From Flavobacteriales bacterium BRH_c54 (GTDB lineage: Bacteria; Bacteroidota; Bacteroidia; Flavobacteriales_E; Vicingaceae): a DNA stretch of 40,700 bases. Positions 10,297-35,274 of this stretch are shown here, piece by piece (the stretch's first letter is position 1; every line of letters starts with the position of its first letter). The DNA is taken from positions 1-40,700 of the forward strand of contig LADZ01000057.1 in NCBI GenBank assembly GCA_000961845.1, in the 5' to 3' direction. The translations under genes were made by a program, and so were the position numbers. The notes beneath the pieces were generated by a model. That model was not told the origin of the DNA. It did not search any database and saw only the letters and a list, made by a program, of their open reading frames with translations.

Positions 10297-10304
10297 TACC
10301 TTTG
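10297..10304 (+). promoter_or_regulatory. Putative -7 box for the HMA-domain gene pair
   Basis: TACCTTTG on the plus strand, a perfect and very typical flavobacterial -7 element, 19 bp before the ATG at 10324. The predicted leader would be only about a dozen bases. No clear TTG at -33. Confidence 0.5.
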
Positions 10305-10323
10305 AGGTGTTAAATTATTAAAG

Positions 10324-10527
10324 ATGAATGTAGCATTAAAAATAGAAGGATTGAGTTGCGGACATTGTGTGAAAGCAGTAGAAAACATTCTTGGTGATTT
10401 AGAAGGAGTGAAGCAATATACGGTTAATTTACCTGATAAAGCTACTGTTGAGTTTGATGAGAATACAATCAACATTGAACAAATAAAACAATCTATAAAC
10501 GATTCTGAAATATATAAAGCCCTATAG
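10324..10527 (+). CDS. Heavy-metal-associated (HMA) domain protein, CopZ-like
   Basis: 67 residues making a single ferredoxin-like HMA domain. The metal-binding motif is GLSCGHC (Cys12, Cys15) followed by VKAVENIL, with the usual later GVKQYTVNLPDKATVEF strand pair. Stand-alone HMA proteins bind Cu(I) or similar soft metals in the cytosol and pass them to P-type ATPases or regulators. It has no signal peptide. The next gene, an HMA lipoprotein, starts 2 bp after its stop, so the two form an operon. No copper ATPase is in the window. Confidence 0.9.
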   Translation: MNVALKIEGLSCGHCVKAVENILGDLEGVKQYTVNLPDKATVEFDENTINIEQIKQSINDSEIYKAL

Positions 10528-10529
10528 TT

Positions 10530-11015: not shown

Positions 11016-11046
11016 GGATAGAAGTTTCAATTGGTAATTTTAATTA

Positions 11047-12381: not shown

Positions 12382-12439
12382 TTTAGTTTAAAAGTTTAAA
12401 AGTTTATCCACATTTCCTCACTTACGCAAATCTACACAT

Positions 12440-15241: not shown

Positions 15242-16261
15242 TTAATCTTGTTTTAGTTCAGTTAAATTAGAAATACTATCTTTTATTAATAAAAATACAA
15301 AAGTTAAAAGAAATGCAGACATCACCGAAATTAAAACAATTAGCATTCTTTTTGGAGCATGTTTTTTATCAGCTGGAGTGGCATAATCTAACACAAATTT
15401 GTGCGATAATAAATTGTTAGCATCTAATTGAGCTTCTTCTAATTTAGACCGTAGAAATGCAAGTTGTTTTTTTTCATAGGAAAACAAATCTCTAAACTTT
15501 GTGAATTTTGCTCCGTGTTTTGCAAATATGTCTAATTTTTCTTCGAGGGATTTAATAGCAGAAGTTTTTCCTTGCAATATGGCAACAGAAAGTTGTTCTG
15601 TGTATCTTTCTACTTGAGATTCATAGTCTATAATCCCCAATTCCATATATATTTTAAGCGAATCTTGTAAAATGTTAACGTATTTTATCTGATCATCATG
15701 TTTTTTTTGAACTAAAGCAAAAGCTTGTTGACTAGTTTCTTTTTGCATTTCCATAATGGTTACATCAACTAACCCTGCAATTTCGTTGGCAATTTTTGCA
15801 GCCATTTCGGGAGATTTGTCTAAAACTTCAATTTCTACAGCAGAAAACTTAGTAATGTTAAAAGTAATATTCCCTTGAAAAACTTCAATTAATTTTGCTT
15901 TCCATTTGGGTTGTAATGTATCAATTTTGTAATAGGTAATTAGATTAAGGTTTTTAACCGTTTGATTACGTATGTTATCTGATTTTAAAATTTGCATTAA
16001 CGTCTCTGCTTCTTCTTTTTCACCAAATTTTAAGATGTCTTCTTTATATGGAGTACTACCTATTAATGGTCGAGAAATGGAACTTATTGCCTTAGGAAAC
16101 ATGGTAACAGTTGATTTGTACATATCAGTCATTAATAGAGAAGCTATTACAGAAACAACAAATGCAATTATGCTTACAATGATTAATGGTTTTCTCCATT
16201 TAAACATTAAAACCAATAAGTTTTGGTTATTAAGAAAGTCTGTAGATTTTTGTGAGTTCAA
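15242..16261 (-). CDS. Wzz-like polysaccharide chain-length determinant
   Basis: 339 residues. One transmembrane helix near the N-terminus (PLIIVSIIAFVVSVIASLLM) and one near the C-terminus (MLIVLISVMSAFLLTFVFLLI) flank a periplasmic coiled-coil domain, the topology of Wzz/PCP co-polymerases. The Wzz start YKSTVTMFPK follows TM1. The cytosolic tail is very short and no tyrosine kinase domain is present. It should set the chain length of the glycan handled by the following ligase/polymerase-like protein, 10 bp downstream, with which it is surely co-transcribed. Residues ~170-280 carry long heptad-like helices. Confidence 0.88.
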   Translation of the reverse strand: MNSQKSTDFLNNQNLLVLMFKWRKPLIIVSIIAFVVSVIASLLMTDMYKSTVTMFPKAISSISRPLIGSTPYKEDILKFGEKEEAETLMQILKSDNIRNQTVKNLNLITYYKIDTLQPKWKAKLIEVFQGNITFNITKFSAVEIEVLDKSPEMAAKIANEIAGLVDVTIMEMQKETSQQAFALVQKKHDDQIKYVNILQDSLKIYMELGIIDYESQVERYTEQLSVAILQGKTSAIKSLEEKLDIFAKHGAKFTKFRDLFSYEKKQLAFLRSKLEEAQLDANNLLSHKFVLDYATPADKKHAPKRMLIVLISVMSAFLLTFVFLLIKDSISNLTELKQD

Positions 16262-21880: not shown

Positions 21881-21910
21881 TAGCCACTGAATTTCAGTGG
21901 CTATTTTTTT
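21881..21910 (+). terminator. Bidirectional terminator between sppA and the GT-C gene
   Basis: Ten-base perfect stem TAGCCACTGA / TCAGTGGCTA with a three-base loop, then seven Ts on the plus strand. It lies 28 bp after the sppA stop and just past the convergent GT-C stop at 21909, so it can serve both. Confidence 0.85.
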
Positions 21911-23888
21911 ATTTACACAACTTAAAATACTGCTGGGCTCTTTTTAAATTACCTGAATTTACTAATAGAGAATGAATGTGGGCACAAAGTTGTTTGTCGT
22001 TCGAATCAAGCTGAAAGGCTTTTTCAAAATAATAAATGGTAAATTGATTTCCATTTGGTATAAGTGAGTATAAGTTAGCCAAACTGATAAAATAGACTTT
22101 AGATTCAGGAATTTTTTCTTTTAACTTTTCCAGCAATTGTATGGCATATTCTGCTTTATTGGCATCTCTAGCAATGTTCATCAATTTTTCGTAGGTTGCT
22201 AAGTTTTCAGGAGTTAGTTCTATTACTTTAGCGTAATGTCTTAAAGCTAAATCGTGCTTGCCGAGTTTATTATAAGAAAATGCTAAATTAGTATGTGCTT
22301 CTAAATAGCTAGAGTCCATTGCTACAGCTTTAGAACAATAATAAATAGCTTTCTCATAGTCTTGTAAAAAATTCACATAAACAGACCCCAAATTATTAAT
22401 AGAAGTTAAGTAAGTGGAATCAATTATTAAAGCTTCATTATAGTGATGAATAATTTTTTTGACATCATTTTGAAGTTGAGGGTTATTAGAGTTGTTCCTT
22501 AATTCTTTAGCAACTTTAGGGTATAAGGTATTAGCAATTAAAGCATGTGCTTTTGCAGATTCTGTTAAGTGTTTAATATCATTCTCATAAAGTGTTAGTT
22601 TATCGTGCCAATCTGGATTTCTGGAAATTGTCCTAGCAGAATAAGCTATAGAAATAACGCTAAACACAAGTAAAAAAGTAGCTGGTAGTTTCACTCCAAT
22701 TGTTTCGGAATCAATATCAATTTTAAATATTTTGAGTAATAAAAAACCAACGACTATACAAAAACCGATTGAAAAAATATAAGTAAACCTATCTGCGACT
22801 ATTCCTACAATAGGAAAAAACACATTTATTACTCCAAGCATTACTCCAAACCAAATAACTATTCCCAACCCCATTACTTTTCTTTTTATAAACTGTATGA
22901 ACCCATAAATTCCAATTGGAATAAAAAAGATAATGGCTGTCCAAACTTGCCAATTGGATAAAGTTGCCATTGGTATTTGATTGTATCCATAATAAAAAGA
23001 AAGATTGACAGGGAAAATCAACATTTCTAAATAAAACCAAGAGGAGTACAAACCGACTAAAACGCTATCTAAAAAATTACCTTCATAAACTAATGGATTT
23101 TCAAAAAAGAGCATTTCTCTGGTAGCTTTTCCAGTTAGCAAACCTTTTTTCATCAATACAAAATTTAATATTACTAATACAACAGAAAAAGTACTAATTA
23201 ATATTTTTTTATAATCTGCTTTTACAAAATATAAAACCACGGGGACTAAGCCCAAAGCGGCTATTGCATTTTTTTTAGATAGGATGGCAAACAAAACAAA
23301 AATCATAGCAAAACCTGCATATTTTAGCTGATTAGTAACCGTATATTTAAGGTACAATTTTAATGAAATGATAATACCCAACAACACAAAAAGTTCGTCT
23401 CTACTTTTAATATTAGCTACAGCTTCCGTATGTAGTGGATGGATTAAAAATAATATTGTTATTAACAGTGGAAGTAAAACATTGTATTCTTTAAAAATGT
23501 TTTGAAGTAAGGAATAAAGCAACATACAAGTGAGGATATATAGCAATAAATTAATAAAATGACTGATGTTTGCTTGGGTTAATAGGTTATTTTTTTCTTT
23601 TTCTTTTTTGGATTGACTAGCAGGTAATCTTCCAAAAAATTGTTTTTCTAAGGCAAAAGAAGAAGTAACCATTGGTCGATATTCGTATTCTTGTTTTCCA
23701 ACAGCATACCTCGATTTAAAAATTCTAGGAATAGCTTTAATTCCATGAGAAACTAGTATATTATCGACCACCATATCATCATCTAATGCATATTCATTAT
23801 TAATGCTATTACCATATAGCAAAAGGGACATAACTGCAATTAGTAGATAAACTTTTTTATTGGTAATTTTTGATAAATTTATTATCAT
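21909..23888 (-). CDS. TMTC-like GT-C glycosyltransferase with C-terminal TPRs (paralogue A)
   Basis: 659 residues. Residues ~10-430 hold about ten to twelve membrane helices; ~440-659 hold TPR units (SINNLGSVYVNFLQDYEKAIYYCSKA; AHTNLAFSYNKLGKHDLALRHYAKV). The first periplasmic loop has the acidic pair YALDDD (residues 34-38), the GT-C catalytic/metal position. HPLHTEAVANIKSRDELF (~150-167) matches the HP.HTEAV....R.DLL pattern of eukaryotic TMTC O-mannosyltransferases. GT-C enzymes use polyprenyl-phosphate sugars and act outside the cytoplasm. It ends the accessory cluster that encodes an ArnC-like enzyme making such donors. A paralogue lies at 35432-37438. Confidence 0.82.
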   Translation of the reverse strand: MIINLSKITNKKVYLLIAVMSLLLYGNSINNEYALDDDMVVDNILVSHGIKAIPRIFKSRYAVGKQEYEYRPMVTSSFALEKQFFGRLPASQSKKEKEKNNLLTQANISHFINLLLYILTCMLLYSLLQNIFKEYNVLLPLLITILFLIHPLHTEAVANIKSRDELFVLLGIIISLKLYLKYTVTNQLKYAGFAMIFVLFAILSKKNAIAALGLVPVVLYFVKADYKKILISTFSVVLVILNFVLMKKGLLTGKATREMLFFENPLVYEGNFLDSVLVGLYSSWFYLEMLIFPVNLSFYYGYNQIPMATLSNWQVWTAIIFFIPIGIYGFIQFIKRKVMGLGIVIWFGVMLGVINVFFPIVGIVADRFTYIFSIGFCIVVGFLLLKIFKIDIDSETIGVKLPATFLLVFSVISIAYSARTISRNPDWHDKLTLYENDIKHLTESAKAHALIANTLYPKVAKELRNNSNNPQLQNDVKKIIHHYNEALIIDSTYLTSINNLGSVYVNFLQDYEKAIYYCSKAVAMDSSYLEAHTNLAFSYNKLGKHDLALRHYAKVIELTPENLATYEKLMNIARDANKAEYAIQLLEKLKEKIPESKVYFISLANLYSLIPNGNQFTIYYFEKAFQLDSNDKQLCAHIHSLLVNSGNLKRAQQYFKLCK

Positions 23889-23986: not shown

Positions 23987-24574
23987 TTATTTCTTAAGTT
24001 TATTAAAATTATAAGGAAAATCAATTGCAATGTTAATTCTGTTGGTATTAGAAAAGTTAAATGATGAATGAGATACCGAAGTGTCAAATATAGCCCAATC
24101 ACCTCGGTTTTTCAAAATACGTTTTTCGTTACCACAATAGATTTCTGAATGCCCATCCAAATTCTCTAAACATAAATGAAAAGCAAGATGTCGTTCAAGG
24201 TGTTTATGACTTTTTATTCCTTTTTTTGCAGCCAATTTTATAAAAGATGAAAAATAAAGGTTTGGAACTTTTAATATATTTTTTAAAGCTGTTGGGAAAA
24301 CTCTATTTACATTGTACCATTTTATTTCAAAACCATTCTTATATAATGGAAAAGCACCCCAAGCTTCATTTCTAAAATCAAACCCTAAGTTAGTCGGTGT
24401 TATCTCTTGTTCTTTAGCATAGTAATCAATGTGAGAACATCCTTCAGGAAAATCGTTGGAAATAAAATCTTTTAATAAAGGGCTTGATTGTTGGGCTTTA
24501 AATTCAGCAGCAATTAAATCTACTTCTTTTAGAATTTCTTGTAAGAAAGGAAAATTGTCAATTTCGTAAAACAT
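23987..24574 (-). CDS. Aspartyl/asparaginyl beta-hydroxylase-like oxygenase
   Basis: 195 residues. The double-stranded beta-helix core has SHKHLERHLAFHLCL (iron His123 and the R.HL segment), YCGNEKRILKNRGDWAIFDTSVSH (iron His169, with the family's FD....H) and an Arg179 that would bind 2-oxoglutarate. The family (PF05118) uses two His rather than a full HxD..H triad, as here. Members hydroxylate Asp/Asn in proteins, free amino acids, or lipid A acyl chains (LpxO). No membrane helix or signal is seen, so it is cytosolic. It starts 8 bp after the preceding unknown gene and is co-transcribed with it. The substrate is unknown. Confidence 0.78.
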   Translation of the reverse strand: MFYEIDNFPFLQEILKEVDLIAAEFKAQQSSPLLKDFISNDFPEGCSHIDYYAKEQEITPTNLGFDFRNEAWGAFPLYKNGFEIKWYNVNRVFPTALKNILKVPNLYFSSFIKLAAKKGIKSHKHLERHLAFHLCLENLDGHSEIYCGNEKRILKNRGDWAIFDTSVSHSSFNFSNTNRINIAIDFPYNFNKLKK

Positions 24575-24582: not shown

Positions 24583-25389
24583 TTATTTAATTAATAAATT
24601 AATAGTTTGCATTGGAAAATTTTCATAGTATACTTCTCTTGGTACATAATAAATTGCTTTAGTAGTATTGTTGATTCTATATCCGGGAGCAAAAAAATAT
24701 AAATTAAATTTATTATAAAAATAGAAACTTAGTTCTTTTAAACGTTGATTGTTTTCTATAGTCAGTATTTTTTTTACAGAATCTGTATTATTAAGTCCTA
24801 AGTTAATTTTTCTTTCCAATTCACTTTCAGTGTATTCAATGACATTTAAATTTTTAATAGTAGCCTTATTTTCAATGCCAAAATCTTTTAATAGTTTCAA
24901 TTTATTTTCAATAGAATTAATGTAAAAATACTTTTTTTCTTCAATATAACTGTTGTGAAATTCCAAACATATACCTGGATTTATTTTGTCTTCATCAAAA
25001 AGGTTAAGTTTACTTGGCAAACCTAAAGCAAAATTAGATGTTCTAAAATGTACATATTTATTAATAATTACTTTTCCATTATTAAGGTAACATTTTAATC
25101 CAAAAGTTAATCCTTGATGTATAAAATTGTATGTTTTTGAAGGTTTCCAATTGTTAAAAATTAAATTTTTATATATATCATTAATTTCAAATGTATTTAA
25201 AAAACTATTAGATGGATTTTTAAAAAACGAAAAATATAATTTCACAGAAACAAGTTTTTCTTTATTATAATTAACTCCAAAATAGTTAATAAATAATGAA
25301 TGTTTGTCTCCTTCATCTAGAATAAAACGGATATTTTCGTTAACCTTTTGGTTATTAATAATAAAGTTAAATTGTTCTATAAAGTTCAT
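24583..25389 (-). CDS. Unknown protein paired with the AspH-like oxygenase
   Basis: 268 residues. I do not recognise the family. It has no signal peptide or membrane helix; it is rich in Asn, Lys, Phe and Ile, with predicted mixed alpha/beta structure. Visible segments include SLFINYFGVNYNKEKLVSVK, GLTFGLKCYLNNGK, INPGICLEFHNSYIEE and LYFFAPGYRINNTTKAIYY. It lies 8 bp upstream of the AspH-like gene and is divergent from the sulfotransferase across 197 bp. Its location between tailoring enzymes suggests a role in the same pathway, perhaps as an enzyme or a peptide/acceptor-binding partner, but this is guesswork. Confidence 0.7.
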   Translation of the reverse strand: MNFIEQFNFIINNQKVNENIRFILDEGDKHSLFINYFGVNYNKEKLVSVKLYFSFFKNPSNSFLNTFEINDIYKNLIFNNWKPSKTYNFIHQGLTFGLKCYLNNGKVIINKYVHFRTSNFALGLPSKLNLFDEDKINPGICLEFHNSYIEEKKYFYINSIENKLKLLKDFGIENKATIKNLNVIEYTESELERKINLGLNNTDSVKKILTIENNQRLKELSFYFYNKFNLYFFAPGYRINNTTKAIYYVPREVYYENFPMQTINLLIK

Positions 25390-25586: not shown

Positions 25587-26636
25587 ATGCTTGATATTGA
25601 AAAATTAGATTATATTCCTTTCTTTTTTATTATAGGACGACCACGTTCTGGCACAACAATGCTTAGTACAATTCTAGATGCTAATAAACAAACGGCTATG
25701 CCAATTGAAAGTAAGGTTATTATTTTTATGTATTTTAAATTTAGAAATGTAAAATTTTGGAATGAAAAATTACTTCTAAAATTTTATGATGCTATTTTTA
25801 AACAGCCTAAAATAGAAACTTGGACGATTAATAAAGAACAACTAAAAAAAGATATACTTCAACTTGGTGAGAATGCTACTTTTCAAAGATTGATTAAGTT
25901 GATTTATCTAAATTATATTTCCTTTTTTGATAAAAAAAACATTACGATTATAGGAGATAAAAATCCTGGATACTCTTATGTGATAAGTCATCTAGAAATA
26001 TTATTAAAACTTTTTCCTGATGCTAAAATTATTCATCTAACACGTGATTACCGTGACCATTATTTATCTATGAATAAGGTAGACTTTGAAGGAAATCATC
26101 TTTCTCTTGTTTGTTACAGGTGGCAATATTCTTTTATACAAGTCAGAAAATTAATGAAAAATAAACCTGAGCAGTACTATTTTTTACGCTATGAGGATTT
26201 GGTTCAACAGCCTGAAAAGCAGGTTAAAGACATCTGTGATTTTTTAGGAATAATATACCATTCGTCCATGTTGGAGTATTACAAAATAAAAGAAAAAGTA
26301 CTCAGTGTATATCCTGAAGATTTAGTAATGAAATACCATAGTAGTTTGTTTCAGCCTATAAGTGTAGATTTTATTGGAAAATGGAAACAAAAACTTAGCC
26401 CGCAACAAATTGAAATGGCTGATGCTATAGTTGGAAAGGCTGCTAATGAAGCAGGATATGAAAGACAAGTAATTTTAACCAAATGGAAATTCTTTTGGTA
26501 TTTATTGCCAGATATGGTATATTCACAATTATGGTTATTTTACAAAAAATGGTATGATCAATTTTTTAAACCAAAAGGAAGTAATAAAGGAAATGGGTCA
26601 ATGTCAAGGTTATATTTCTTAATTTTTAAGCGATAA
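25587..26636 (+). CDS. PAPS-dependent sulfotransferase family protein
   Basis: 349 residues. The 5'-phosphosulfate loop is IIGRPRSGTTML (residues ~15-26) and the 3'-phosphate motif is KIIHLTRDYRDHYLS, with YYFLRYEDLVQQPEKQV typical of Sulfotransfer_3 proteins. It would move sulfate from PAPS to a hydroxyl or amine on a glycan, lipid or small molecule. It is the only plus-strand gene in the accessory cluster: its last 11 bp overlap the 3' end of the GNAT gene, and its start faces the unknown/AspH pair. No PAPS synthesis gene is in the window. Confidence 0.87.
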   Translation: MLDIEKLDYIPFFFIIGRPRSGTTMLSTILDANKQTAMPIESKVIIFMYFKFRNVKFWNEKLLLKFYDAIFKQPKIETWTINKEQLKKDILQLGENATFQRLIKLIYLNYISFFDKKNITIIGDKNPGYSYVISHLEILLKLFPDAKIIHLTRDYRDHYLSMNKVDFEGNHLSLVCYRWQYSFIQVRKLMKNKPEQYYFLRYEDLVQQPEKQVKDICDFLGIIYHSSMLEYYKIKEKVLSVYPEDLVMKYHSSLFQPISVDFIGKWKQKLSPQQIEMADAIVGKAANEAGYERQVILTKWKFFWYLLPDMVYSQLWLFYKKWYDQFFKPKGSNKGNGSMSRLYFLIFKR

Positions 26637-27297
26637 TTTCGTATTCAAAGTAAGTATAATTATCAATTACTTTTATTGAAGCATTGATATTAAATTTAGT
26701 AATCATTTTTTTTATTTTATTAATGAAGTTAGTATCTGTGTTTTTAACCTTTACCTTTAAGGTTTTTTCTTCATAAATTTTGGTTAGAAAAACAATCATT
26801 TTTCTTGTTTTTTCTATATAGTTAGTTCTATCTAACTCCATGAATATGACACCATTTTTTTCAGAAGTAGTTTTAAAACCAATTTGTTTATTATAAGCTA
26901 TTCCTTCTTTATTAGAATTGAGTACTCTTATTAAAGTTTTATTCCAAGATAGTATCTCAAATCCTAATTCTATAATGGTTAGAGAGGCTAATGCGGGAAC
27001 AATTGTTTTTAAATAGTTGCTTTCCCAAATAAATAAACCAGCTTCAGACGTTAAGTTTTCCCAATCTAAATTTCTATCATTAATTAACCCAATAGGTTGT
27101 TGATTATAAATGATTAGGTAATAAAAATTATTAAAGTTATTTATACTTTTGAACCATTCTATTTGCTGATCCATAGAAATGTACCCTCTGTAAATCATTT
27201 TTGATGATATATTATCAGCATTTCTTTTGATTCTAATCAACTCAATATCATCAATGGTAATTTTTTTGAGTTGAATACCATATTTTTCAACTATCAT
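26626..27297 (-). CDS. GNAT-family acyltransferase (PseH-like N-terminal domain) with extra C-terminal domain
   Basis: 223 residues. Residues ~8-155 are a GNAT domain of the Acetyltransf_3/PseH-like kind: ITIDDIELIRIKRN, then ISMDQQIEWFKSI, the central AGLFIWESNYL and the final RVLNSNKEGIAYNKQIGF, where acyl-donor contacts lie. PseH-type enzymes acylate the amino group of nucleotide-activated 4-amino sugars. Residues ~160-223 form a short alpha/beta extension not found in PseH. The ATG overlaps the GT2 stop by 4 bp (ATGA), so it is the last gene of the tight operon. Acyl-ACP instead of acetyl-CoA as donor is my inference from the context. Confidence 0.78.
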   Translation of the reverse strand: MIVEKYGIQLKKITIDDIELIRIKRNADNISSKMIYRGYISMDQQIEWFKSINNFNNFYYLIIYNQQPIGLINDRNLDWENLTSEAGLFIWESNYLKTIVPALASLTIIELGFEILSWNKTLIRVLNSNKEGIAYNKQIGFKTTSEKNGVIFMELDRTNYIEKTRKMIVFLTKIYEEKTLKVKVKNTDTNFINKIKKMITKFNINASIKVIDNYTYFEYEIIA

Positions 27298-28223
27298 TTA
27301 CTAATCTTTTGTTTAATAAAAAAGGTAGGTTTTTTATTCTGAACTTGATAAAGTTTATAGATATATTGACCTAAAACACCTAATGAGTATAAGATGATAC
27401 TTGCAGAAAATAATACGGCAACAATGATTGAAGTATAGCCTATAGGAACATCCTTAAATATTTTTCTGTGAATAAAATAAATACCTAATATAAAAGATAA
27501 AAATGATGAAATTAAACCTAAGTATGTAATTAATTTTAAAGGAAGAGCAGTATAATTTGTGGTAATATTAATAGACATTTTCAATAAACTAAATATGGAA
27601 TATCTTGATTTTTTATTTCTTTTGTGTTCAACTTCTACAAAAGAAATGTTATCGGTGTACCAAAGTAATAATTCATCAATATAAATAAAACTTTGGCTAT
27701 GTTCTAGAATTTTTTTAGAAATAAACGCTGTAAATAGCCTAAAGGAAGAACCTTTCCCATGTGATCCTAAAAATAACTTAGCTATTCTTTTTAGTAAGCT
27801 GCTACCTATATTTCTAATAGTATTATGTTTTTTGTTTCTATAAATACCATAAACAACTTCAGAATTATTGCTGTTATATTCACCAATCAATTTTAGTATT
27901 TCTTTGGGATTAACTTGTAAATCATCATCAATGGTAATAATTATATCGCCTAGGGAATTTTTTATTCCACAAAGAGTAGCGTTATGTTGCCCGTAGTTTC
28001 TCGAAAGTCTTATAATACTTATTTTACAGTTGAGTTGATGATAAACTTTTTCAATATCCTTCCAGGTTGAAAGTTTACCACCGTCATTTACTATAATAAT
28101 TTCAAACGAAGATTCGATAGAATTAAAAACAGTTACAATTTCTGAACATAATTGGTTAATAGATTCTCCACTATTAAAAGCAGGGATTATAATAGAGTAG
28201 GTTACGTTATTTTGTTTTTCCAT
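27294..28223 (-). CDS. ArnC-like polyprenyl-phosphate glycosyltransferase (GT2)
   Basis: 309 residues. The GT2 domain (1-~215) has SIIIPAFNSGESI, IIVNDGG (Asp47), SRNYGQHNATLCG and TIDDDLQVNPKEI (DDD at 99-101). RNYGQHNA plus DDDLQ.NP.EI closely follow ArnC/PmrF, which moves an N-formyl-aminoarabinose onto undecaprenyl phosphate. Two membrane helices follow (LITYLGLISSFLSFILGIYF; SIIVAVLFSASIILYSLGVLG). It should make an undecaprenyl-phosphate sugar at the cytosolic face, usable by a GT-C enzyme after flipping. It sits 1 bp after the SDR gene and overlaps the GNAT gene by 4 bp. Confidence 0.88.
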   Translation of the reverse strand: MEKQNNVTYSIIIPAFNSGESINQLCSEIVTVFNSIESSFEIIIVNDGGKLSTWKDIEKVYHQLNCKISIIRLSRNYGQHNATLCGIKNSLGDIIITIDDDLQVNPKEILKLIGEYNSNNSEVVYGIYRNKKHNTIRNIGSSLLKRIAKLFLGSHGKGSSFRLFTAFISKKILEHSQSFIYIDELLLWYTDNISFVEVEHKRNKKSRYSIFSLLKMSINITTNYTALPLKLITYLGLISSFLSFILGIYFIHRKIFKDVPIGYTSIIVAVLFSASIILYSLGVLGQYIYKLYQVQNKKPTFFIKQKISK

Positions 28224-28224
28224 T

Positions 28225-28920
28225 TTAATGATTTAACCCAGTATTGAAATTTCCAACTTGTAAAATTTGTCCAGTAATAGAACTGTTTTTATCACTCACT
28301 AAAAAATGAATGAGTTCATTAACCTCTTTTTTATCAACATTGCCAAAGGGATGTTTTTTCTCAAACTCTTTTATTTTTTCTTCTGTTGTAAAGTTGGTGA
28401 TTGAATCTGCCATCTCTCCTTTTACAAAAGTAGGAGCTACTGCATTGACCTTTATTTTTTTTGATGCTAATTCTATTGCCAAGGTTTTTACAAGCCCTTC
28501 TAGTGCCATTTTAGAGCTCACGTATAAAGCCCCTCCATAGTAAGGGAATCGAGTAGCAACAGAACTCAGAAATACTAATGAAGCATTATTTTTTATTTTA
28601 TTATTTTTTAATAATGTAGAAACAGAAACTAAAGCCCCATAAAAGTTAGCATTAAAAATCGTATCGTAATGTCTTTTTTTTGTGAATTTAATAGGTGTAT
28701 GACTGGCTACTCCTGTAAAATATATAACTCCATCTAATTGAGATAAATTATCAAAACAAGATGTATCAAACTGATCGAAATCTATTTTAATTATATTAGG
28801 ATGTTTTTCTAATTTTAATGTATTTCTTGCTGCTAAATAAAATTCATATATTTTACTGTAAGTTGTTACAAAATCTTCAGCAATTTCTGATGTAGCTCCT
28901 ATGATTAAAATTTTTTTCAT
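28225..28920 (-). CDS. Short-chain dehydrogenase/reductase, FabG-like
   Basis: 231 residues. Cofactor loop IIGATSEIA replaces the classical TGxxxGxG glycine-rich loop. Catalytic Ser is in VFLSS (119/120), with Tyr133 and Lys137 in YVSSK, followed by KVNAVAPTFV, which is typical of FabG. It is slightly shorter than E. coli FabG (244). Located 3 bp downstream of a KAS III gene that follows an ACP gene, it most likely reduces a 3-oxoacyl-ACP to the 3-hydroxyacyl form. A sugar ketoreductase is a possible alternative. Confidence 0.85.
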   Translation of the reverse strand: MKKILIIGATSEIAEDFVTTYSKIYEFYLAARNTLKLEKHPNIIKIDFDQFDTSCFDNLSQLDGVIYFTGVASHTPIKFTKKRHYDTIFNANFYGALVSVSTLLKNNKIKNNASLVFLSSVATRFPYYGGALYVSSKMALEGLVKTLAIELASKKIKVNAVAPTFVKGEMADSITNFTTEEKIKEFEKKHPFGNVDKKEVNELIHFLVSDKNSSITGQILQVGNFNTGLNH

Positions 28921-28923
28921 AAA

Positions 28924-29979
28924 TTAATCCATTTCAATTATTGGTAAACAAACCACATTGTTAAAATCTATGATAACAGAACCCCAAGATAAACCAACTC
29001 CAAAACCTGATAGTAAAAGTTTTTTATTTTGATTTACGAGATTTTCTGACAAAGCTGCTAAAATAGTAATAGGGATTGAAGCAGAACTCGTATTTCCATA
29101 ATTTTCTATTGAATAAGGTACTTTTTCTAAAGGTAATTTTAATTTTTTTCTAATACTTTCATTAATCAATTTATTGGCTTGATGAAACACAAAGTAATCT
29201 ATTTCCTCTTTAGATACTCCTGAAGAGCTCAAAAGTTCGTTGATATTTGGAGTAATTTCTTTTAAAGAAAAATTAAAGACATCTATTCCATTAAGTTCAA
29301 GTTGAATATTATTTCGTTCTATTCCTTCACTAATTTTTTTTGATTTTAAAGATGTTTCTGAAACATAATTTCTTGCACCACCATCTCTTATTATAATAGC
29401 TTCATAACCTTTTCCGTCTGTTTGCAAGTTATAAAATGATTTATAAGCATTAGTATTAAACTCTACTGCAGTACAAGTTCCAGCATCTCCAAAAAGAGGG
29501 AAAGTACTTTTGTCTTTTGGAGATGTGTGTAGGGTTGAAATATCTCCAACCAATAATAATCCTTTTTTTAGTTGACTATTTAACATAGAGGAGATTACAG
29601 AAAGACCATATACGTAACCAGAACACCCCATAGTTAGGTCAAAAGCAATACATGATTTTGATAAATTTAGTTTGTGTTGTAAAATGCAAGCAGAAGAAGG
29701 AATGACATAATCTCTAGATTGAGATACAAAGATTAGAATATCAATATCTTCCCGTTTCCAATTGATTTTATCGAGTAAATCATTGGTTGCTCTTTCACAT
29801 AAATCGGAAGTGGTTGTTCCAAAATTGGCTACATGTCTTTTTGATACTCCTGTAGTTTTAATAAACATTTCTCGCTCTTTTGCAGATATCCAATCATAGT
29901 TCATATTAATATAAACATTGGATGGGACAGCAGCAGCAATGCCTTTAATTTCAATATTTTCAACTGAAAATTTAGCCAT
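28924..29979 (-). CDS. Beta-ketoacyl-ACP synthase III (copy 1)
   Basis: 351 residues, somewhat longer than FabH. Catalytic triad visible: Cys119 in DLTMGCSGYVYGL, His266 in VFHQANKLI, Asn296 in YGNTSSASIPI, with the C-terminal SGFGVGLSWGS. So it should be a functional decarboxylating condensing enzyme. Its start overlaps the ACP gene by 8 bp, which means these two are a matched pair. A second KAS III lies on the other side of the ACP, so this cannot be the housekeeping fabH alone. Probable role: adding a two-carbon unit to a specific starter on the dedicated ACP. Confidence 0.92.
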   Translation of the reverse strand: MAKFSVENIEIKGIAAAVPSNVYINMNYDWISAKEREMFIKTTGVSKRHVANFGTTTSDLCERATNDLLDKINWKREDIDILIFVSQSRDYVIPSSACILQHKLNLSKSCIAFDLTMGCSGYVYGLSVISSMLNSQLKKGLLLVGDISTLHTSPKDKSTFPLFGDAGTCTAVEFNTNAYKSFYNLQTDGKGYEAIIIRDGGARNYVSETSLKSKKISEGIERNNIQLELNGIDVFNFSLKEITPNINELLSSSGVSKEEIDYFVFHQANKLINESIRKKLKLPLEKVPYSIENYGNTSSASIPITILAALSENLVNQNKKLLLSGFGVGLSWGSVIIDFNNVVCLPIIEMD

Positions 29980-30211
29980 TATTAGTTTTTGATTGAACTA
30001 GATTAAATAAATCTTGAATGGTTTGGGTTTCTTTTAAATCATCTCCTTTAAGTAATATATCATATTCAGAATCAATTAAAGCAATAATTATTAAAGCATG
30101 CATAGAACTCCAACCTTCAATTTCTCTATAATTTGTTTCAGGGTTTAAAGTTCCCTTTTCAAGTTCTTCAAACTCATGTTCAATATTTTCTATAAATGTT
30201 TTTATATTCAT
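29972..30211 (-). CDS. Acyl carrier protein, atypical phosphopantetheine site
   Basis: 79 residues, acidic and helical, the ACP size. The attachment site reads GWSSMHALIIIALI, so Ser36 in SSM stands where DSL is usual; the Trp before it is common in ACPs of O-antigen and flagellin glycosylation clusters. The helix II/III end DDLKETQTIQDLFNLV is typical ACP. It is flanked by two KAS III genes, overlapping one by 8 bp and lying 4 bp from the other. It probably carries a pathway-specific acyl group rather than serving bulk fatty acid synthesis. Confidence 0.88.
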   Translation of the reverse strand: MNIKTFIENIEHEFEELEKGTLNPETNYREIEGWSSMHALIIIALIDSEYDILLKGDDLKETQTIQDLFNLVQSKTNNG

Positions 30212-30215
30212 GGTA

Positions 30216-31256
30216 CTAAGTTTTTAAAATTGTTCCACCCCAAGATAAGCCAATTCCAAATCCTGAAATTAATATTTGTTGACTTTTTTGTAGTTTTTTT
30301 TCCTTAAATATTTGATAAAGGGCTATTGGAATAGAGGCTGAAACAGTATTTCCAATTTCTTTAATATTAATTATAAATTTTTCTTCGTCAATGTTAAGTT
30401 TTTTTCTAATAAAATCAAGCATTTGTCCATTAGCTTGATGTAATACAAAATAATCTATTTCTGAAATAAGTAAGTTTTCTTTGATTAATATCTCTTGTAT
30501 TAATTGAGGAAGTTTTTTGAGAGCAAAAAGAAAAATTTTGCTACTGTTCATTCTTAACCTCCCTCCCTCTAGTCCGGTTGGAATCTTTTTGAATTGAGTT
30601 AACCATTTTATGCTCGCAGGTTCTTTAGTTGCGGAATGTTCAACAAATAAACTTTTTGCACCGGATCCATCAGTACCAAAAGTAAAGTTGGTAGGTCGTG
30701 CATTAATACCAGCATTAATTTTTTTATTACTAATTAGTGTAGCAGCAGCAGCATCACTAAAAATAGCTCTTAAATCTAAATCTAAGGGATGAATTACCTT
30801 GGTAGGGACATCGGCTGTTATTAATAATACATTAGTGACTTGTTTACTTTCTATTAATGCTTTAGCTAAACTAAGTCCATAAATAAATCCTGTGCATCCG
30901 TGCAGGACATCTATAGCTCCACAATTTTGTGATAAACCTAAATCATTTTGAATGATACAGGCTGTTGTAGGACCTTTATATTCTAATGCATCAGAAACAA
31001 AAATAATGTATTCAATTTCATTTTTATTAATGTTCCATTCTTTAAATAATTTATTGGCTGCTGCATTTCCTAAGTCTTTAGCAGTTTCATCTAAACGGGA
31101 TATATATCTTTTATTTACCCAACATTGATTGTATAATTCTTCTGAAGATATTTTAATTTTTTCTTTATTCCAATTGGTATTAAAATCAGTAATTAATTCT
31201 TCATTAGTTATTGATTTTTCAGGAAAATGATAACTTATTGCATTAATATATATCAA
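30216..31256 (-). CDS. Beta-ketoacyl-ACP synthase III (copy 2)
   Basis: 346 residues. Triad: Cys121 in DVLHGCTGFIYGL, His273 in VLHQANGQMLDFI, Asn303 in IGNTVSASIPI; the C-terminus has SGFGIGLSWGG. Sequence divergence from copy 1 is wide, so the two are not a recent duplication and may take different starters. It is the first gene of the operon; the ACP follows 4 bp downstream. Promoter must lie in the ~60 bp between its ATG and the terminator at 31316-31344; that AT-rich stretch holds only a near match (TATCTTTA on the minus strand) to the -7 box. Confidence 0.92.
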   Translation of the reverse strand: MIYINAISYHFPEKSITNEELITDFNTNWNKEKIKISSEELYNQCWVNKRYISRLDETAKDLGNAAANKLFKEWNINKNEIEYIIFVSDALEYKGPTTACIIQNDLGLSQNCGAIDVLHGCTGFIYGLSLAKALIESKQVTNVLLITADVPTKVIHPLDLDLRAIFSDAAAATLISNKKINAGINARPTNFTFGTDGSGAKSLFVEHSATKEPASIKWLTQFKKIPTGLEGGRLRMNSSKIFLFALKKLPQLIQEILIKENLLISEIDYFVLHQANGQMLDFIRKKLNIDEEKFIINIKEIGNTVSASIPIALYQIFKEKKLQKSQQILISGFGIGLSWGGTILKT

Positions 31257-31315
31257 AATATTTTTAGCTTTAAAGATACAATTCTTTTCAAATTAAAAAA
31301 GAAATTTATTTAAAT

Positions 31316-31350
31316 AAAAAGAGGAACTTTTAGTTCCTCTTTTTATGGGG
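31316..31350 (-). terminator. Terminator after the repeat-rich type IX cargo gene
   Basis: Twelve-base stem AAAAAGAGGAAC / GTTCCTCTTTTT around a five-base loop; its ends give T-tracts on either strand. On the minus strand it lies 14 bp beyond the stop at 31358 and isolates the biosynthetic operon starting at 31256. Confidence 0.88.
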
Positions 31351-31357: not shown

Positions 31358-34300
31358 TTATCTTATCAATGTTAGTGTTCCTTTTTGAAAATATTCTTTG
31401 CCATCTATGCCTTCTGCTCTAATAATGAAATAATAAGTTCCATCAGCAGCATCTGCACCAGAAAGTGTTTTTCCATCCCACATACCGTTTACATTATCCC
31501 AAGCAAACATTTTTTGTCCCCATCGGTTGTAAATCTCCCCTTCTACATGTTTTAAGTTTACACCATCAACTCTAAAAAAGTCATTGCTTCCATCACCATT
31601 AGGAGTAAAAATAGTAGGTATTAAAATACTTGATTCATCAAATACTTCTATTATAACAGTAGCTGTATCCCAACAAACTCCATTAGTTACAATTAGTGTT
31701 GCAGTAAATGACCCTGGGTTGGTATAAGTATGAGTTGGTTCAAAGATGGTATCTGTAGAACCGTTTCCAAAATCCCAAAAATAGTTGGTAGCACCAGTAC
31801 TTCCATTTCCGAAGAATACATCTAATGGAGATGAACCTGTTACAGGTGTAGCATTAATTACGGCATCTACAAAATTAACAGTTATAGTTACGGAATCTAT
31901 TTCACTCGAACAAGAACCAACATTGTTAGCATATATGGTAACAATCCCACCACTTGTCGGAACATAAGCAAGAGGGTTTCCTGTTCCAATAATAATAGTA
32001 CCAGCAGCATCAGCGTACCATGTTACAGTTCCTGTACCTGTTGTATTTGCAGAAAGATTTAAGGTGTCATTTAAGCAAATAGGGTTAACAGGATTTATAC
32101 TAATTGTATTTTGTGGATTAATTGTTATTTGTACAGAATCTACAGAAGGACAAGCATTTCCTGCAGAAGTCGTATTATAATAAATAGTATAACTACCAAT
32201 CCCTGTTAATGTAATATCAATTTCTCCTGTTGTTGCATTAATAGTTCCTGATGGAGATATAGTAAATGTACCACCATTAGTTCCTGTAATGTTAGGTATA
32301 GGGTTATTATCTGCTTCACAGAAAGTAGTTGAAGAATAATTAAATGAAGCATCATCATCTGCATTAATCACAACAGAATGTATTAATGTATCAGTACACG
32401 GAGCAGCACCAACAGTATAGGTTATATTTACATTAGTACCTCCTAAACCTGATGGGTCAAAATTATTTCCTGTAACTCCTGTTCCTGAGAAACTGCCACC
32501 GCTAGAGCCGGTTATTAATGTTGATAAATCTATAGGTGTAGCACTTTCACACATTGGTCCCGGATTAGTCCATGAAGCATCAAATGTTGAAACATTTATA
32601 GTGTGTGTTTGAGTTTCTTGACAAGGAGCTGTTCCAACTGTATAAGTTACAGATTGAGAGCCTGAATTTGGATCAAACATATTACCTGTAACTCCTGTTC
32701 CACTCCAAGTACCGCCAGTAGTACCAGTTACTAAATTATCTAAATTGATATTTCCGGCAGCAGCACAAACCGGAGATGGATTAGTCCAACTAGGATCAAC
32801 ATCTGGTAATATATTTATGGTATGTGTTTGAGTCTCTGTACATGGAGCAGCACCAACAGTATAGGTTACACTTACATTAGTTCCCCCTAGACCTGAAGGA
32901 TCAAAATTATTACCTGTAACTCCTGTTCCCGAAAAACTTCCACCAGCTGAGCCAGTTATTAATGTTGATAAATCTATAGGTGTAGCATTTTCACATATTG
33001 GACTTGGGTTGGTCCATGAAGGGTCAAATGCAGAAACATTTATAGTGTGTGTTTGAGTTTCTTGACAAGGGGCTGTGCCAACTGTATAAGTTACAGATTG
33101 AGAGCCTGAATTTGGGTCAAACATATTACCTGTAACTCCTGTTCCTGACCAAGTACCTCCTGCAGTACCAGTTACTAGATTATCTAAGTTGATATTTCCG
33201 GCAGCAGCACAAACCGGAGATGGGTTAGTCCAAGTGGGGTCAACATCTGGCAATACATTTATGGTGTGTGTTTGAGTTTCTTGACAAGGGGCTGTTCCAA
33301 CTGTATAGGTTACAGATTGAGTCCCAGATGAAGGACTAAATGAAGTACCTGTAACTCCTGTTCCTGACCAAGTACCACCTGTAGTACCAGTTATTAAGTT
33401 ATTTAAATTTATATTACCTGCAGCTGCACAGATTGGAGATGGATTTGTCCATGCAGGATTAACATCTGGAACTACTGTAATAGTTTGAGTAAGTGTTTGG
33501 GTACAAGGAGAAGAACCAACAGTATATGTAACACTTTGTGATCCAGATGCAGGATTGAAACTTGTTCCTGAAACACCAGTACCACTCCAGGTGCCACCAG
33601 TAGTACCAGTTATTAAACTATTAAGATTAATAGAACCGGCAGCCGCACAAATAGGTGAAGGGTTAGTCCAAGCCGGATTTACAACAGGATTTACTGTTAC
33701 AGTTACGGATTGACAAGTAGTGTTATTACAAGTTCCTTCTGCTCTAACAAAATAAGTTGTTGTTGTGCCAGGAGATATAGTTATGGTAGATCCAGAACCT
33801 ACTGAGGTACCTCCACAACTTCCTGAATACCATTGCCAACCAGCACCAGTACCTAGTGAACCACCATTTACTGTTAAATTAGTAGTTGATCCAACACATA
33901 TTGGGTTGGGAGTTGCTGTTGCACTAGTTGGAGCAACAGAAGGATTACTTACAGTAACAGCAAAACATCTGGGAGCACTTGTTCCACAAAGATTATTTGC
34001 AGTTACACAAATATTTCCAGTACTTCCTGGTGTGGCAGTAATAGAGGTTGTTCCTTGACCGGAATTTATTGTCCACCCGGCAGGAACAGTCCATGTATAA
34101 CCAGCAGCATTAGCTACCGGTGGTATAGAAAAAGTGGTGGCAACTCCAGTACAAACGTTGGAGTTCCCTGTTATTGTTCCAGGCTGTGTTGCAGGAGTAG
34201 CTTGGTTGGCAGGGACATATGTCATTGTTAATACTGCTCTATTTATACAAACTCCTTGTCCTGTACAAAGTTGGAAACTATTATTTCCTCCATAGTTATA

Positions 34301-34726
34301 GCCCGGTACACCACAAGGAAAGGTTTGTCCTGTAGTAGCAGATGTCCCACAAGGCAAAGACGAACAAGGACAACCTGGGTTTCCCTCATTAACAGTTGGA
34401 AAAGTGTTGCCATTAATGGTAGCAGTTAAGCTTCCTCCTTGACATTGTGCTGAATAATAACTAATAGCAATATTAGTAACAATATTTCCAGGAGGAACAG
34501 GATCCACAAAATTTTGAGTTCCACAAGCTGCGGTATTTCCACACCAACTTGATGTTGTATTAAAACACCAATAATCGGCACCACAAACAGTACATCCACC
34601 ACACGCTTGAAAACCACTATAAGTAATAGTGGTTGTTGCTGTTTGAGCATTTAGATTGTTATCTTGAAAAGCATTTAGAAAAAATAAACAACTGAATATT
34701 AGAATTGAAAGTATTGATTTTTTCAT
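31358..34726 (-). CDS. Large secreted repeat protein with CHU_C type IX secretion domain
   Basis: 1122 residues. Signal peptide 1-28 (LFFLNAFQDNNLNAQ). Residues 36-170 are Cys/Gly-rich, with about 14 cysteines likely in disulfides. A PKD-like domain (~182-260) and an Ig-like one (~262-346) follow. Six repeats of ~73 residues with WTNPSPIC start at 347; two further beta domains (~789-950), a PKD domain (NYFWDFGNGS, ~952-1028) and the CHU_C gliding motility-associated C-terminal domain (IPTIFTPNGDGSNDFF, RWGQKMF, WDGK, GTYYF) end it. CHU_C-type cargo passes the outer membrane through the type IX system and is usually served by a PorP/SprF-like partner; none is adjacent. Likely a cell-surface adhesin or matrix protein. 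Confidence 0.9.
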   Translation of the reverse strand: MKKSILSILIFSCLFFLNAFQDNNLNAQTATTTITYSGFQACGGCTVCGADYWCFNTTSSWCGNTAACGTQNFVDPVPPGNIVTNIAISYYSAQCQGGSLTATINGNTFPTVNEGNPGCPCSSLPCGTSATTGQTFPCGVPGYNYGGNNSFQLCTGQGVCINRAVLTMTYVPANQATPATQPGTITGNSNVCTGVATTFSIPPVANAAGYTWTVPAGWTINSGQGTTSITATPGSTGNICVTANNLCGTSAPRCFAVTVSNPSVAPTSATATPNPICVGSTTNLTVNGGSLGTGAGWQWYSGSCGGTSVGSGSTITISPGTTTTYFVRAEGTCNNTTCQSVTVTVNPVVNPAWTNPSPICAAAGSINLNSLITGTTGGTWSGTGVSGTSFNPASGSQSVTYTVGSSPCTQTLTQTITVVPDVNPAWTNPSPICAAAGNINLNNLITGTTGGTWSGTGVTGTSFSPSSGTQSVTYTVGTAPCQETQTHTINVLPDVDPTWTNPSPVCAAAGNINLDNLVTGTAGGTWSGTGVTGNMFDPNSGSQSVTYTVGTAPCQETQTHTINVSAFDPSWTNPSPICENATPIDLSTLITGSAGGSFSGTGVTGNNFDPSGLGGTNVSVTYTVGAAPCTETQTHTINILPDVDPSWTNPSPVCAAAGNINLDNLVTGTTGGTWSGTGVTGNMFDPNSGSQSVTYTVGTAPCQETQTHTINVSTFDASWTNPGPMCESATPIDLSTLITGSSGGSFSGTGVTGNNFDPSGLGGTNVNITYTVGAAPCTDTLIHSVVINADDDASFNYSSTTFCEADNNPIPNITGTNGGTFTISPSGTINATTGEIDITLTGIGSYTIYYNTTSAGNACPSVDSVQITINPQNTISINPVNPICLNDTLNLSANTTGTGTVTWYADAAGTIIIGTGNPLAYVPTSGGIVTIYANNVGSCSSEIDSVTITVNFVDAVINATPVTGSSPLDVFFGNGSTGATNYFWDFGNGSTDTIFEPTHTYTNPGSFTATLIVTNGVCWDTATVIIEVFDESSILIPTIFTPNGDGSNDFFRVDGVNLKHVEGEIYNRWGQKMFAWDNVNGMWDGKTLSGADAADGTYYFIIRAEGIDGKEYFQKGTLTLIR
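32363..33688 (-). repeat. Six tandem ~73-residue repeats inside the cargo protein
   Basis: WTNP(S/G)P(I/V/M)C recurs at residues 353, 426, 499, 571, 647 and 719 (spacings 73, 73, 72, 76, 72). Each unit continues with I(N/D)L..L(I/V)TG..GG(T/S)(W/F)SGTGV.G and ends in VTYTVG.(A/S)PC..T. Units 3+4 and 5+6 are nearly the same at both protein and DNA level, showing duplication of a ~441-bp pair. Confidence 0.9.
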
Positions 34727-34776: not shown

Positions 34777-35274
34777 TTACTTTATCTTTTTTACTTTTAT
34801 AGTTTTAAAAACATGTTTTTTAATTGCATTTTTTTCCGATTCATCAGGTGCTTCAATAACTAATTTAGAAATGTTTTTGTCAGTTGAAGAACATGAGCCT
34901 TCATAGTCTTTTCTAGCAGGAATACTTACAACAACTTTTTTTGAAGTTGGAGTTAATTGCCACTCAACTTCAACGTCAGATTCGTTAGTATTGATTAACT
35001 TTAGAAGAATTACTTTTTTAGAATTGCAAACACTTTTCATTGTATAAAAAGTAACACCTTCCAACATGTTTGTAAGTGGAGCAGGAGCAATAATTGTATT
35101 GCCTGATGGCTCATCATGAGTATGAGGGGTAAATTTATTTACTGGCATCCATGATTCTCCATGAGGAGTGGCTGCAGTAGATTTTTCATGCTCATGGTTT
35201 TGAGAAAAGCCTGTTAAACTTGTTATTAGAATAGTAATTAAAACTACTGAACGAAATGTTTTGATGTTTTTCAT
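34777..35274 (-). CDS. Exported His-rich small protein, unknown
   Basis: 165 residues. Signal peptide SVVLITILITSLTGFSQ, mature start NHEHEKSTAATPHGESW. The first ~35 mature residues hold seven histidines (HEH, PHGE, PHTHDE), which may bind metal. The rest looks like one beta-sandwich domain (KKVILLKLINTNESDVEVEWQL; KKVVVSIPARKDYEGSC) with two cysteines (Cys83 region and GSCSS) and a basic tail. I know no family. It lies 50 bp upstream of the cargo gene and 157 bp downstream of the GT-C gene, with a TATATTTG box in front, so it may be co-expressed with the cargo gene. Confidence 0.78.
   Translation of the reverse strand: MKNIKTFRSVVLITILITSLTGFSQNHEHEKSTAATPHGESWMPVNKFTPHTHDEPSGNTIIAPAPLTNMLEGVTFYTMKSVCNSKKVILLKLINTNESDVEVEWQLTPTSKKVVVSIPARKDYEGSCSSTDKNISKLVIEAPDESEKNAIKKHVFKTIKVKKIK

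Follow-up and report, generated by a model that had tools for sequence, protein, structure and literature searches.

A conserved six-gene operon in a Flavobacteriales bacterium that may make a lipid-linked acylated amino sugar for neighboring GT-C/TPR proteins

Contig LADZ01000057.1 of Flavobacteriales bacterium BRH_c54 (draft genome 2.9 Mb, 95% complete) is 40.7 kb long and is referred to here, over its whole length, as the window. Reading from 31256 to 26626 on the minus strand are six intact, mechanically called open reading frames (ORFs) that form the operon considered here. The first gene, KASa (30216 to 31256), encodes a 3-oxoacyl-acyl carrier protein (ACP) synthase III (KAS III; Pfam ACP_syn_III_C, 107 bits) and begins with TTG at 31256, in a frame that is open but holds no ATG or GTG further upstream. 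It is followed by a gene for a dedicated ACP (29972 to 30211), recognized by weak NCBIfam matches; by KASb, a KAS III of a second, distinct clade (28924 to 29979; Pfam ACP_syn_III domain); and by a FabG-like short-chain dehydrogenase/reductase (SDR), probably a 3-oxoacyl-ACP reductase (28225 to 28920; Pfam adh_short_C2, 110 bits). The last two genes encode a family 2 glycosyltransferase (GT2) that resembles the polyprenyl-phosphate transferases of the GtrB/ArnC type (27294 to 28223; Pfam Glycos_transf_2 and phmmer) and a GCN5-related N-acetyltransferase (GNAT) that, judged by phmmer and a fold model, is a probable FdhC/PseH-like nucleotide-amino-sugar N-acyltransferase (26626 to 27297). In transcription order the genes are spaced by 4, -8, 3, 1, and -4 bases, which bears out the tight run of six ORFs described in a first-pass annotation of the DNA; Pfam and NCBIfam agree with the family assignments made there, the ACP being divergent. 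A hairpin with a 15-bp stem followed by U-rich sequence (31314 to 31346, minus strand; -17.7 kcal/mol, z -6.3) lies between the stop codon of the upstream gene, which encodes a CHU_C protein, and the KASa start, and it is likely the terminator of that gene. Because this strong hairpin separates KASa from the CHU_C gene, the arrangement suggests that the operon is transcribed from its own promoter.

The six-gene run is not a chance arrangement, since the same order was found again in 26 of 70 cassette-bearing loci, a recurrence that the first-pass annotation had proposed looking for. These 70 loci came from 111 that were examined, comprising the window, 30 stretches around KASb or GNAT matches in genomes of its own order, and the best 80 of at least 577 KASb matches in named genomes. 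All were picked by KASb or GNAT similarity, and counts of neighboring genes in them depend on contig ends. A cassette was scored when a GT2 of at least 250 bits lay within four ORFs of a KAS, using profiles built from the own-order loci. Leaving out two near-copies, the exact order KAS-ACP-KAS-SDR-GT2-GNAT is present in 24 of 68 loci. Shorter forms account for 10 (ACP-KAS-SDR-GT2-GNAT) and 13 (ACP-KAS-GT2-GNAT) of the 70, and the remaining 21 are partial, cut, or rearranged. The six-gene set is thus a conserved module with shorter forms. Examples of the SDR-less four-gene form are L078:6872-9597, L079:7375-10035, L080:7708-10434, L118, L121, and L154. A gene of about 302 codons, c8, lies near 12 of 21 SDR-less loci; the one member scanned matched nothing in Pfam (E 0.001) or NCBIfam (E 1e-20). 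In L124, scored as a five-gene locus, KASa sits further upstream, with three cupin-like ORFs between it and the ACP gene (4557-8004).

At thresholds of E 1e-60 for KASb and E 1e-5 for GNAT, the searched set of 46 genomes from the order yielded 22 with KASb and 27 with GNAT. Across the phylum, in an even selection of 158 Bacteroidota genomes with completeness of 90% or more, in which 14 and 7 candidates per genome were scored and copies may be missed, the cassette GT2 (E 1e-85) was seen solely in the window's own genome. The set is therefore rare outside certain lineages, and this sample is uninformative on co-occurrence. Cassette-like or KAS/SDR clusters also occur in records labeled Saccharibacteria, Treponema, Alcanivoracaceae, Chitinivibrionia, and Methylovorus (L111, L158, L159, L170, and L179); the Saccharibacteria-labeled record, L111, may be a binning error.

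The catalytic residues of the operon's enzymes, which had been described as apparently intact, are indeed in place: Cys119, His266, and Asn296 of KASb are invariant in an alignment of 15 sequences, the Asp99-100-101 (DDD) motif of GT2 is invariant in an alignment of 24, and inspection by eye found the same C/H/N motifs in KASa and the Ser and Tyr-xxx-Lys in the SDR. The best NCBIfam model for the SDR is FabG (105.9 bits, under its cut-off of 222). Although the ACP has no Pfam match and reaches NCBIfam models only weakly (E 0.001 to 0.004), cassette ACPs carry Trp-x-Ser-(Met/Leu/Ile) in 53 of 55 cases and retain the serine in the remaining two.

The two synthases are of different types. In a tree of 110 KAS proteins, taken from the own-order loci and 36 of the 80 named loci and rooted by midpoint only, KASa and KASb are separated with support of at least 98. 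In the own-order loci, all KAS proteins encoded upstream of the ACP gene fall on one side of the tree and all downstream ones on the other. KASa groups with the upstream KAS of its relatives and with one KAS from eight Flavobacterium-type clusters (fork support 98/98), and the KASb clade (support 100/99) includes the single KAS of the four- and five-gene forms. Seven named KAS proteins that had been labeled "up" by coordinates group with KASb; all of them follow the ACP gene or occupy the KASb place. The FabH of this genome attaches to the KASa side by a very long branch. The cassette KAS proteins of G022, a genome of the same family (f1) as the window's, are identical to those of L123, a named record of Vicingaceae, which the NCBI taxonomy assigns to Flavobacteriales, Bacteroidota. 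Eight of the ten multi-KAS Flavobacterium-type clusters in the tree (L135, L138, L141, L152, L155, L158, L165, and L177) have one KAS on each side, and in the other two (L149 and L174) every KAS is on the KASb side. Many Flavobacterium-type clusters carry a DegT-type aminotransferase, and both of those that were scanned encode a NeuD/PglB/VioB-type acyltransferase related to TIGR03570 (147 bits, cut-off 160.8). In the Flavobacterium sugar cluster L138, an ORF between KAS and SDR (9053-10153) has Rieske-type oxygenase subunits as its best NCBIfam match (84 bits against 670), and related loci have ORFs of similar size at the same spot.

Two different KAS proteins, an ACP, and a FabG-like SDR together are what is found in the acyl-sugar module of the wfp type, so that the acyl half of the operon is already known in kind. 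In the parts of the published account available to us, wfpC and wfpE of Flavobacterium psychrophilum encode KAS proteins, wfpD an ACP, wfpF a reductase, and wfpG an acyltransferase; the wfpC-wfpG route to a 3,5-dihydroxyhexanoyl group is predicted, and the amide on a 4-amino sugar of the O-polysaccharide was established by chemistry and nuclear magnetic resonance (PMC6519341). Going by that description, and with gene order taken from the gene letters, the resemblance extends to two different KAS proteins, a dedicated ACP, a 3-ketoacyl-ACP reductase, and an N-acyltransferase. Clusters from three other Flavobacterium species, one more Flavobacterium, and two Mucilaginibacter have KAS pairs that likewise split between the KASa and KASb sides. 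The systems differ in that wfp, as described, uses a PglD homologue and UDP-Qui2NAc4N in a Wzx/Wzy O-antigen locus, whereas the operon studied here has a GNAT, a GtrB/ArnC-like GT2, and neighbors of the glycosyltransferase C (GT-C) type. The first-pass annotation had cited a different precedent, the viosamine island of Pseudomonas, which is kin in kind but less close than the two-KAS wfp module. That island (vioA, vioM, vioT, vioS, vioB, vioR, and acp) is reported to make dTDP-N-(3-hydroxy-1-oxobutyl)-2-O-methylviosamine; a vioR mutant lacks the modified sugar, and VioT transfers it to rhamnosyl glycans on flagellin (PMC3927599). On that account the island shares KAS III, ACP, reductase, and acyltransferase genes with our operon but has one KAS, a methyltransferase, an aminotransferase, and a large transferase, VioT, and no polyprenyl-phosphate GT2 is described among its seven ORFs. 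Unlike the island, the operon has no methyltransferase among its six genes and the three neighbors scanned, and it has no aminotransferase in the cluster, the DegT matches of this genome being on other contigs. The first-pass annotation had also stated that it knew of no description of the exact six-gene set with an ArnC-like enzyme. The acyl half has been described (PMC6519341, as far as its text was available), but among the open-licence papers listed in our searches we found no description of the acyl module combined with GNAT, a GtrB/ArnC-like GT2, and GT-C proteins, which is weak evidence of absence.

The presence of two old KAS types suggests two rounds of condensation and ketoreduction. 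Because two condensations and two ketoreductions with no dehydration yield 3,5-dihydroxyhexanoyl, that chain is our first guess for the product, an assignment made by analogy and offered tentatively. KAS III, ACP, and SDR proteins also occur in pathways for free or membrane lipids such as aryl polyenes, dialkylresorcinols, and aminolipids, in which case GT2 and GNAT would act on a lipid. The SDR does match FlxB (69 bits) and the two KAS proteins match DarB/StlD-type enzymes (30 to 47 bits), but these flexirubin and resorcinol matches are all far under cut-off, and the operon's six genes encode neither a dehydratase nor an aromatase nor a cyclase; a pigment or lipid pathway was rejected as the principal interpretation on these grounds. 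Furthermore, both KAS types are common to clusters with DegT-type aminotransferases, and annotated relatives of the operon adjoin sulfotransferases, hydroxylases, GT-C proteins, and, in some cases, sugar aminotransferases. The contexts restricted to lipid or pigment synthesis that the first-pass annotation had set against its own interpretation were not seen among annotated neighbors, and we regard a lipid product as very improbable.

GT2 provides the firmest functional inference for any gene of the operon. In phmmer searches it matches GtrB (sll0501) at 2.8e-35 over residues 6 to 303 of 309 and ArnC at 1e-31 over residues 9 to 307, nearly end to end, and a C-terminal hydrophobic segment is apparent by eye. 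Its best NCBIfam model is also ArnC (PRK10714), at 129.2 bits against a cut-off of 529, and it matches the model for PgfS, a streptococcal glycosyltransferase, at 104 bits against 500. The earlier description of GT2 as ArnC-like therefore stands as kinship, but the score, so far under cut-off, led us to reject ArnC equivalence. ArnC acts on an N-formylated 4-amino sugar, and the operon differs from the ArnC pathway in having no ArnA or ArnD among its six genes. From its sequence relationships, GT2 very probably loads a sugar onto polyprenyl phosphate.

The kinship of GNAT is less direct. PseH is its sole NCBIfam match (E 0.01); since its 44.7 bits fall short of that model's cut-off of 93.1, PseH equivalence was rejected. 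FdhC is the best single-sequence match in the PDB by phmmer (4.7e-7), with PseH next (1.7e-4), and a profile of 25 sequences placed spermidine acetyltransferases, FdhC, and PseH level. The structural model of GNAT (predicted local distance difference test score 95.4) gave fold Z scores of 19.1 for SpeG and PseH (159 and 160 residues aligned) and 18.6 for FdhC (172 aligned). The PseH likeness proposed by the first-pass annotation thus survives as a tie with FdhC and SpeG by profile and fold, with FdhC nearer by single sequence. FdhC (PDB 5kta and 5ktc) is itself a GNAT, and its product, according to the PDB title, is 3-(3-hydroxybutanoylamino)-3,6-dideoxygalactose; the two proteins are about 17% identical in the structural alignment, and FdhC was solved with coenzyme A (CoA), whereas we assume an acyl-ACP donor for GNAT. 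The GxG/A sequence is missing from the aligned CoA loop in 54 of 60 cassette GNATs: all 26 from loci with two KAS genes and an SDR, all 14 from loci with one KAS gene and an SDR, and 14 of 20 from SDR-less loci. Loss of this loop was considered as a sign of an ACP donor and dropped; because CoA-bound FdhC also lacks GxG/A in the aligned loop, whereas the PseH and SpeG sequences compared carry it, the loss counts only as a likeness to FdhC.

A WecE-type aminotransferase (E 1e-90) is present in 24 of the 27 genomes with GNAT versus 6 of the other 19 (Fisher p 9.7e-5). Of the DegT aminotransferases encoded next to cassettes, those of L071, L073, and L078 scored 427, 415, and 393 bits with the WecE equivalog model NF008687 (cut-off 375), and that of L080 fell just below (359.5). 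Because WecE-type aminotransferases adjoin some cassettes and co-occur with GNAT across genomes, and because of the FdhC match, we favor a role for GNAT in amino-sugar metabolism, and we consider with good confidence that it N-acylates a sugar. The genome of BRH_c54 has four DegT matches, all off this contig. One of them, on contig 25, is the only WecE-type gene above cut-off (470.8 bits) and is the best candidate, by sequence, for the amino-sugar step. RmlA is also above cut-off in this genome. Our best guess for the sugar is a dTDP-4-amino-4,6-dideoxyhexose, with a gap in its supply route in this draft. In L099 (genome G027), a stretch about 11 to 16 kb past the cassette (6526-11795) holds a second ACP-like ORF, followed by ligase-, dehydrogenase-, and flavoprotein-like ORFs recognized by eye, as well as a gene for a WecE-type aminotransferase (396 bits).

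Ranked second is a 3-amino-3,6-dideoxy sugar made by the FdtA/FdtB route, which the FdhC product would favor. There are three FdtA matches in this genome, one of them adjoining a DegT aminotransferase on contig 42. However, FdtA was found in only 10 of the 27 GNAT genomes (and in 2 of the 19 others), far fewer than have WecE, and the cassette-adjacent aminotransferases that were scanned are WecE-like; a 3-amino sugar is therefore the less likely substrate, and we consider it rather improbable. Also in this genome, at L184:8273-9084, two adjacent FdtA-type genes lie near ORFs that by eye resemble an ATP-binding cassette (ABC) exporter, suggesting a separate 3-amino sugar pathway there.

The most informative neighbors of the operon went unnamed in the first-pass annotation, although its six-gene core was right. 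On either side of the operon, both on the minus strand, are genes for two GT-C-type membrane proteins with tetratricopeptide repeat (TPR) tails, the only copies found in this genome: copy 1 (21909 to 23888; 659 amino acids; itself a member of profile A4, with which it scores 862.8 bits) and copy 2 (35432 to 37438; 668 amino acids; model confidence 89). The two are 35% identical and both have TPR matches. Copy 1 scores 19.8 bits with TMTC_DUF1736 (cut-off 27), and copy 2 has no listed match to this family. Residues 8 to 454, approximately, of the copy 2 model match AglB (Z 19.8, 351 aligned), yeast oligosaccharyltransferase (OST; 19.7), Pmt4 (19.5, 347 aligned), and PglB (17.5), and its C-terminal part matches TPR proteins. 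The membrane part is thus of GT-C fold, in copy 2 by its structural model and in copy 1 through the identity between the two. GT-C proteins of this kind go with the cassette: within the order, a score of at least 560 bits is reached in 21 of the 22 genomes with KASb versus 1 of the 24 lacking it (p 1e-10), or 22 of the 46 in total. In 16 genomes with both genes on one contig, the nearest GT-C start is 2.4 to 12.2 kb from the KASb start; in five others the two are on separate contigs, G017 has no GT-C above threshold, and G010 has GT-C but no KASb. A GT-C homologue is encoded no more than six ORFs away in 17 of 24 distinct six-gene, 3 of 10 five-gene, and 2 of 21 SDR-less loci, and in 8 of 11 distinct six-gene loci from named records outside the own-order set, some of which may belong to the same order. 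In the phylum sample, GT-C matches (E 1e-60) occurred in 7 of 158 genomes and exceeded 500 bits only in the window's own. We think it likely that one or both GT-C/TPR enzymes use the lipid-linked sugar as donor.

Next to these genes are two candidate acceptors, both encoded on the minus strand. The CHU_C-domain (type IX secretion) surface protein encoded immediately upstream of the operon (31358 to 34726) has Pfam CHU_C (65.8 bits), PKD, and Ig-like domains. A second CHU_C protein is encoded near the contig end (37508 to 40552; CHU_C 54.2 bits, eight PKD_4 stretches), where the frame runs to 40699 and the start is unsure. CHU_C homologues accompany 11 of 24 six-gene loci. A convergent sulfotransferase gene on the plus strand (25587 to 26636; Pfam Sulfotransfer_3, 102 bits) overlaps the GNAT stop, and homologues lie within six ORFs of 16 of the 24 distinct six-gene loci. 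The remaining neighbors are on the minus strand. An Asp_Arg_Hydrox-domain protein, distant kin of the acyl hydroxylases LpxO and OlsC (23987 to 24574; PF05118, 40.6 bits; 23.7 bits with the OlsC model, whose cut-off is 450), has homologues in 15 of 24 six-gene loci, the window's own protein scoring 28 bits with their profile. A 268-amino-acid protein (24583 to 25389) has no family assigned (nothing in Pfam at E 0.001 or in NCBIfam at E 0.01), and a 165-amino-acid protein with no Pfam family (34777 to 35274) belongs to a cluster of four loci (c25), its kin in the three others adjoining GT-C genes. Elsewhere in the window (11047 to 13723), an FAD-binding monooxygenase-type gene adjoins a kynureninase-domain gene (KYNU_C, 74.5 bits), and the pair is probably part of a kynurenine pathway.

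Polyprenyl-phosphate sugars also serve polysaccharides: ArnC and GtrB pathways modify lipid A or O-antigen, and ArnT and O-antigen-modifying GT-C enzymes decorate such acceptors. On this alternative, GT2 would load undecaprenyl phosphate as before, but the acylated sugar would go to lipopolysaccharide (LPS) or capsule, with GT-C decorating a polysaccharide or the lipid A core. The window itself holds, about 10 to 13 kb from the operon, an O-antigen-ligase-family gene (13756 to 15231; Wzy_C, 81 bits) and an adjoining, weakly Wzz-like gene (15242 to 16261; 22.5 bits, below cut-off), and the nearest described acyl module, wfp, serves an O-polysaccharide according to what was available of its description. 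ABC-exporter homologues lie near 8 of 21 SDR-less loci but beside none of the 24 six-gene loci, so that the six-gene form goes with GT-C and surface proteins, CHU_C proteins among them, and the SDR-less form more often with polysaccharide export. The modeled GT-C also resembles the protein glycosyltransferases AglB, OST, and protein O-mannosyltransferase (PMT) and has a TPR tail, although a shared fold proves no function. We regard LPS or capsule as a less likely destination, albeit one with evidence in its favor.

From this gene content, order, conservation, and co-occurrence, and from the family and fold assignments, we infer the following chemistry, in which the operon would make a lipid-linked acylated amino sugar for the flanking GT-C/TPR proteins. 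KASa, KASb, the dedicated ACP, and the SDR would build a short beta-hydroxyacyl chain, 3,5-dihydroxyhexanoyl-ACP or close to it. GNAT would transfer that chain to a dTDP-amino-dideoxyhexose, at its amino group. This sugar would most likely be a 4-amino-4,6-dideoxyhexose made by the WecE-type enzyme of contig 25, and GT2 would transfer its acylated form to undecaprenyl phosphate. The lipid-linked sugar, once flipped, would be the periplasmic donor for one or both GT-C/TPR proteins, with acceptors that are perhaps secreted proteins such as the neighboring CHU_C proteins; the sulfotransferase and hydroxylase homologues may decorate the sugar or the chain. The core of what the first-pass annotation had proposed is retained, namely, that a dedicated module for a short acyl chain, an enzyme that probably N-acylates a sugar, and a transferase of the polyprenyl-phosphate type belong together, with corrections on precedent, GNAT kinship, and neighbors. 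We hold the explanation as a whole with modest confidence; that the acceptor is a protein is possible but appreciably less secure.

Several observations weigh against this explanation, in addition to the FdtA matches and LPS-type genes mentioned above. The SDR might act on some other substrate, and the ties of GNAT by profile and fold include spermidine acetyltransferases. The sugar supply is incomplete: no RmlB scored above cut-off in this genome, where a dehydratase-like gene adjoining RmlA reached 162 of 365 bits; searches for DegT, 4,6-dehydratase, and FdtA genes found none on this contig; a WecE homologue lies within six ORFs of merely 1 of the 24 six-gene loci; and 3 of the 27 GNAT genomes have no WecE match at E 1e-90. 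The compared genomes are related, so the Fisher p-values overstate independence, and the 560-bit GT-C threshold was chosen once the scores were known to jump from 565 to 470, with only some candidates (27) scored per genome. Finally, adjacency is what connects the GT-C proteins to CHU_C acceptors.

In eukaryotic O-mannosylation, dolichol-phosphate-mannose synthase works with TMTC or PMT enzymes, a GT2 making a polyprenyl-phosphate sugar and a GT-C enzyme using it. The system proposed here would follow the same two-step logic, and the modeled GT-C resembles PMT in fold and, like TMTC, carries a TPR tail; it would differ in its donor, an acylated amino sugar rather than mannose, and in the TMTC match of copy 1, which is below the Pfam cut-off. 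It is conceivable, as a more speculative extension, that Bacteroidota have a self-contained protein glycosylation pathway paralleling O-mannosylation, in which the GT-C/TPR pair would transfer a polyketide-like acylated, possibly sulfated amino sugar to type IX surface proteins. In the sources as available to us, type IX cargo can be glycosylated in Cytophaga hutchinsonii (PMC11858162), and a 2025 review counts three components of the machinery for the general O-glycan of Bacteroidota, its flippase, transferase, and ligase, as undiscovered (PMC12871550); neither source was seen to describe the present system. With respect to that review, the GT-C proteins described here are concrete candidates for a parallel system with a predicted donor, and we do not claim that they are the transferase of the general O-glycan. 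The locus joins into one testable unit a pathway for a custom acyl group, an enzyme that probably acylates an amino sugar, a transferase acting on polyprenyl phosphate, and a glycosyltransferase that is a candidate for the periplasmic step, and it would extend the repertoire of acyl-sugar modules past O-antigen and flagellin. If the protein-glycosylation interpretation is true, this clade of GT-C proteins would represent protein glycosyltransferases of bacteria for which the donor operon is known.

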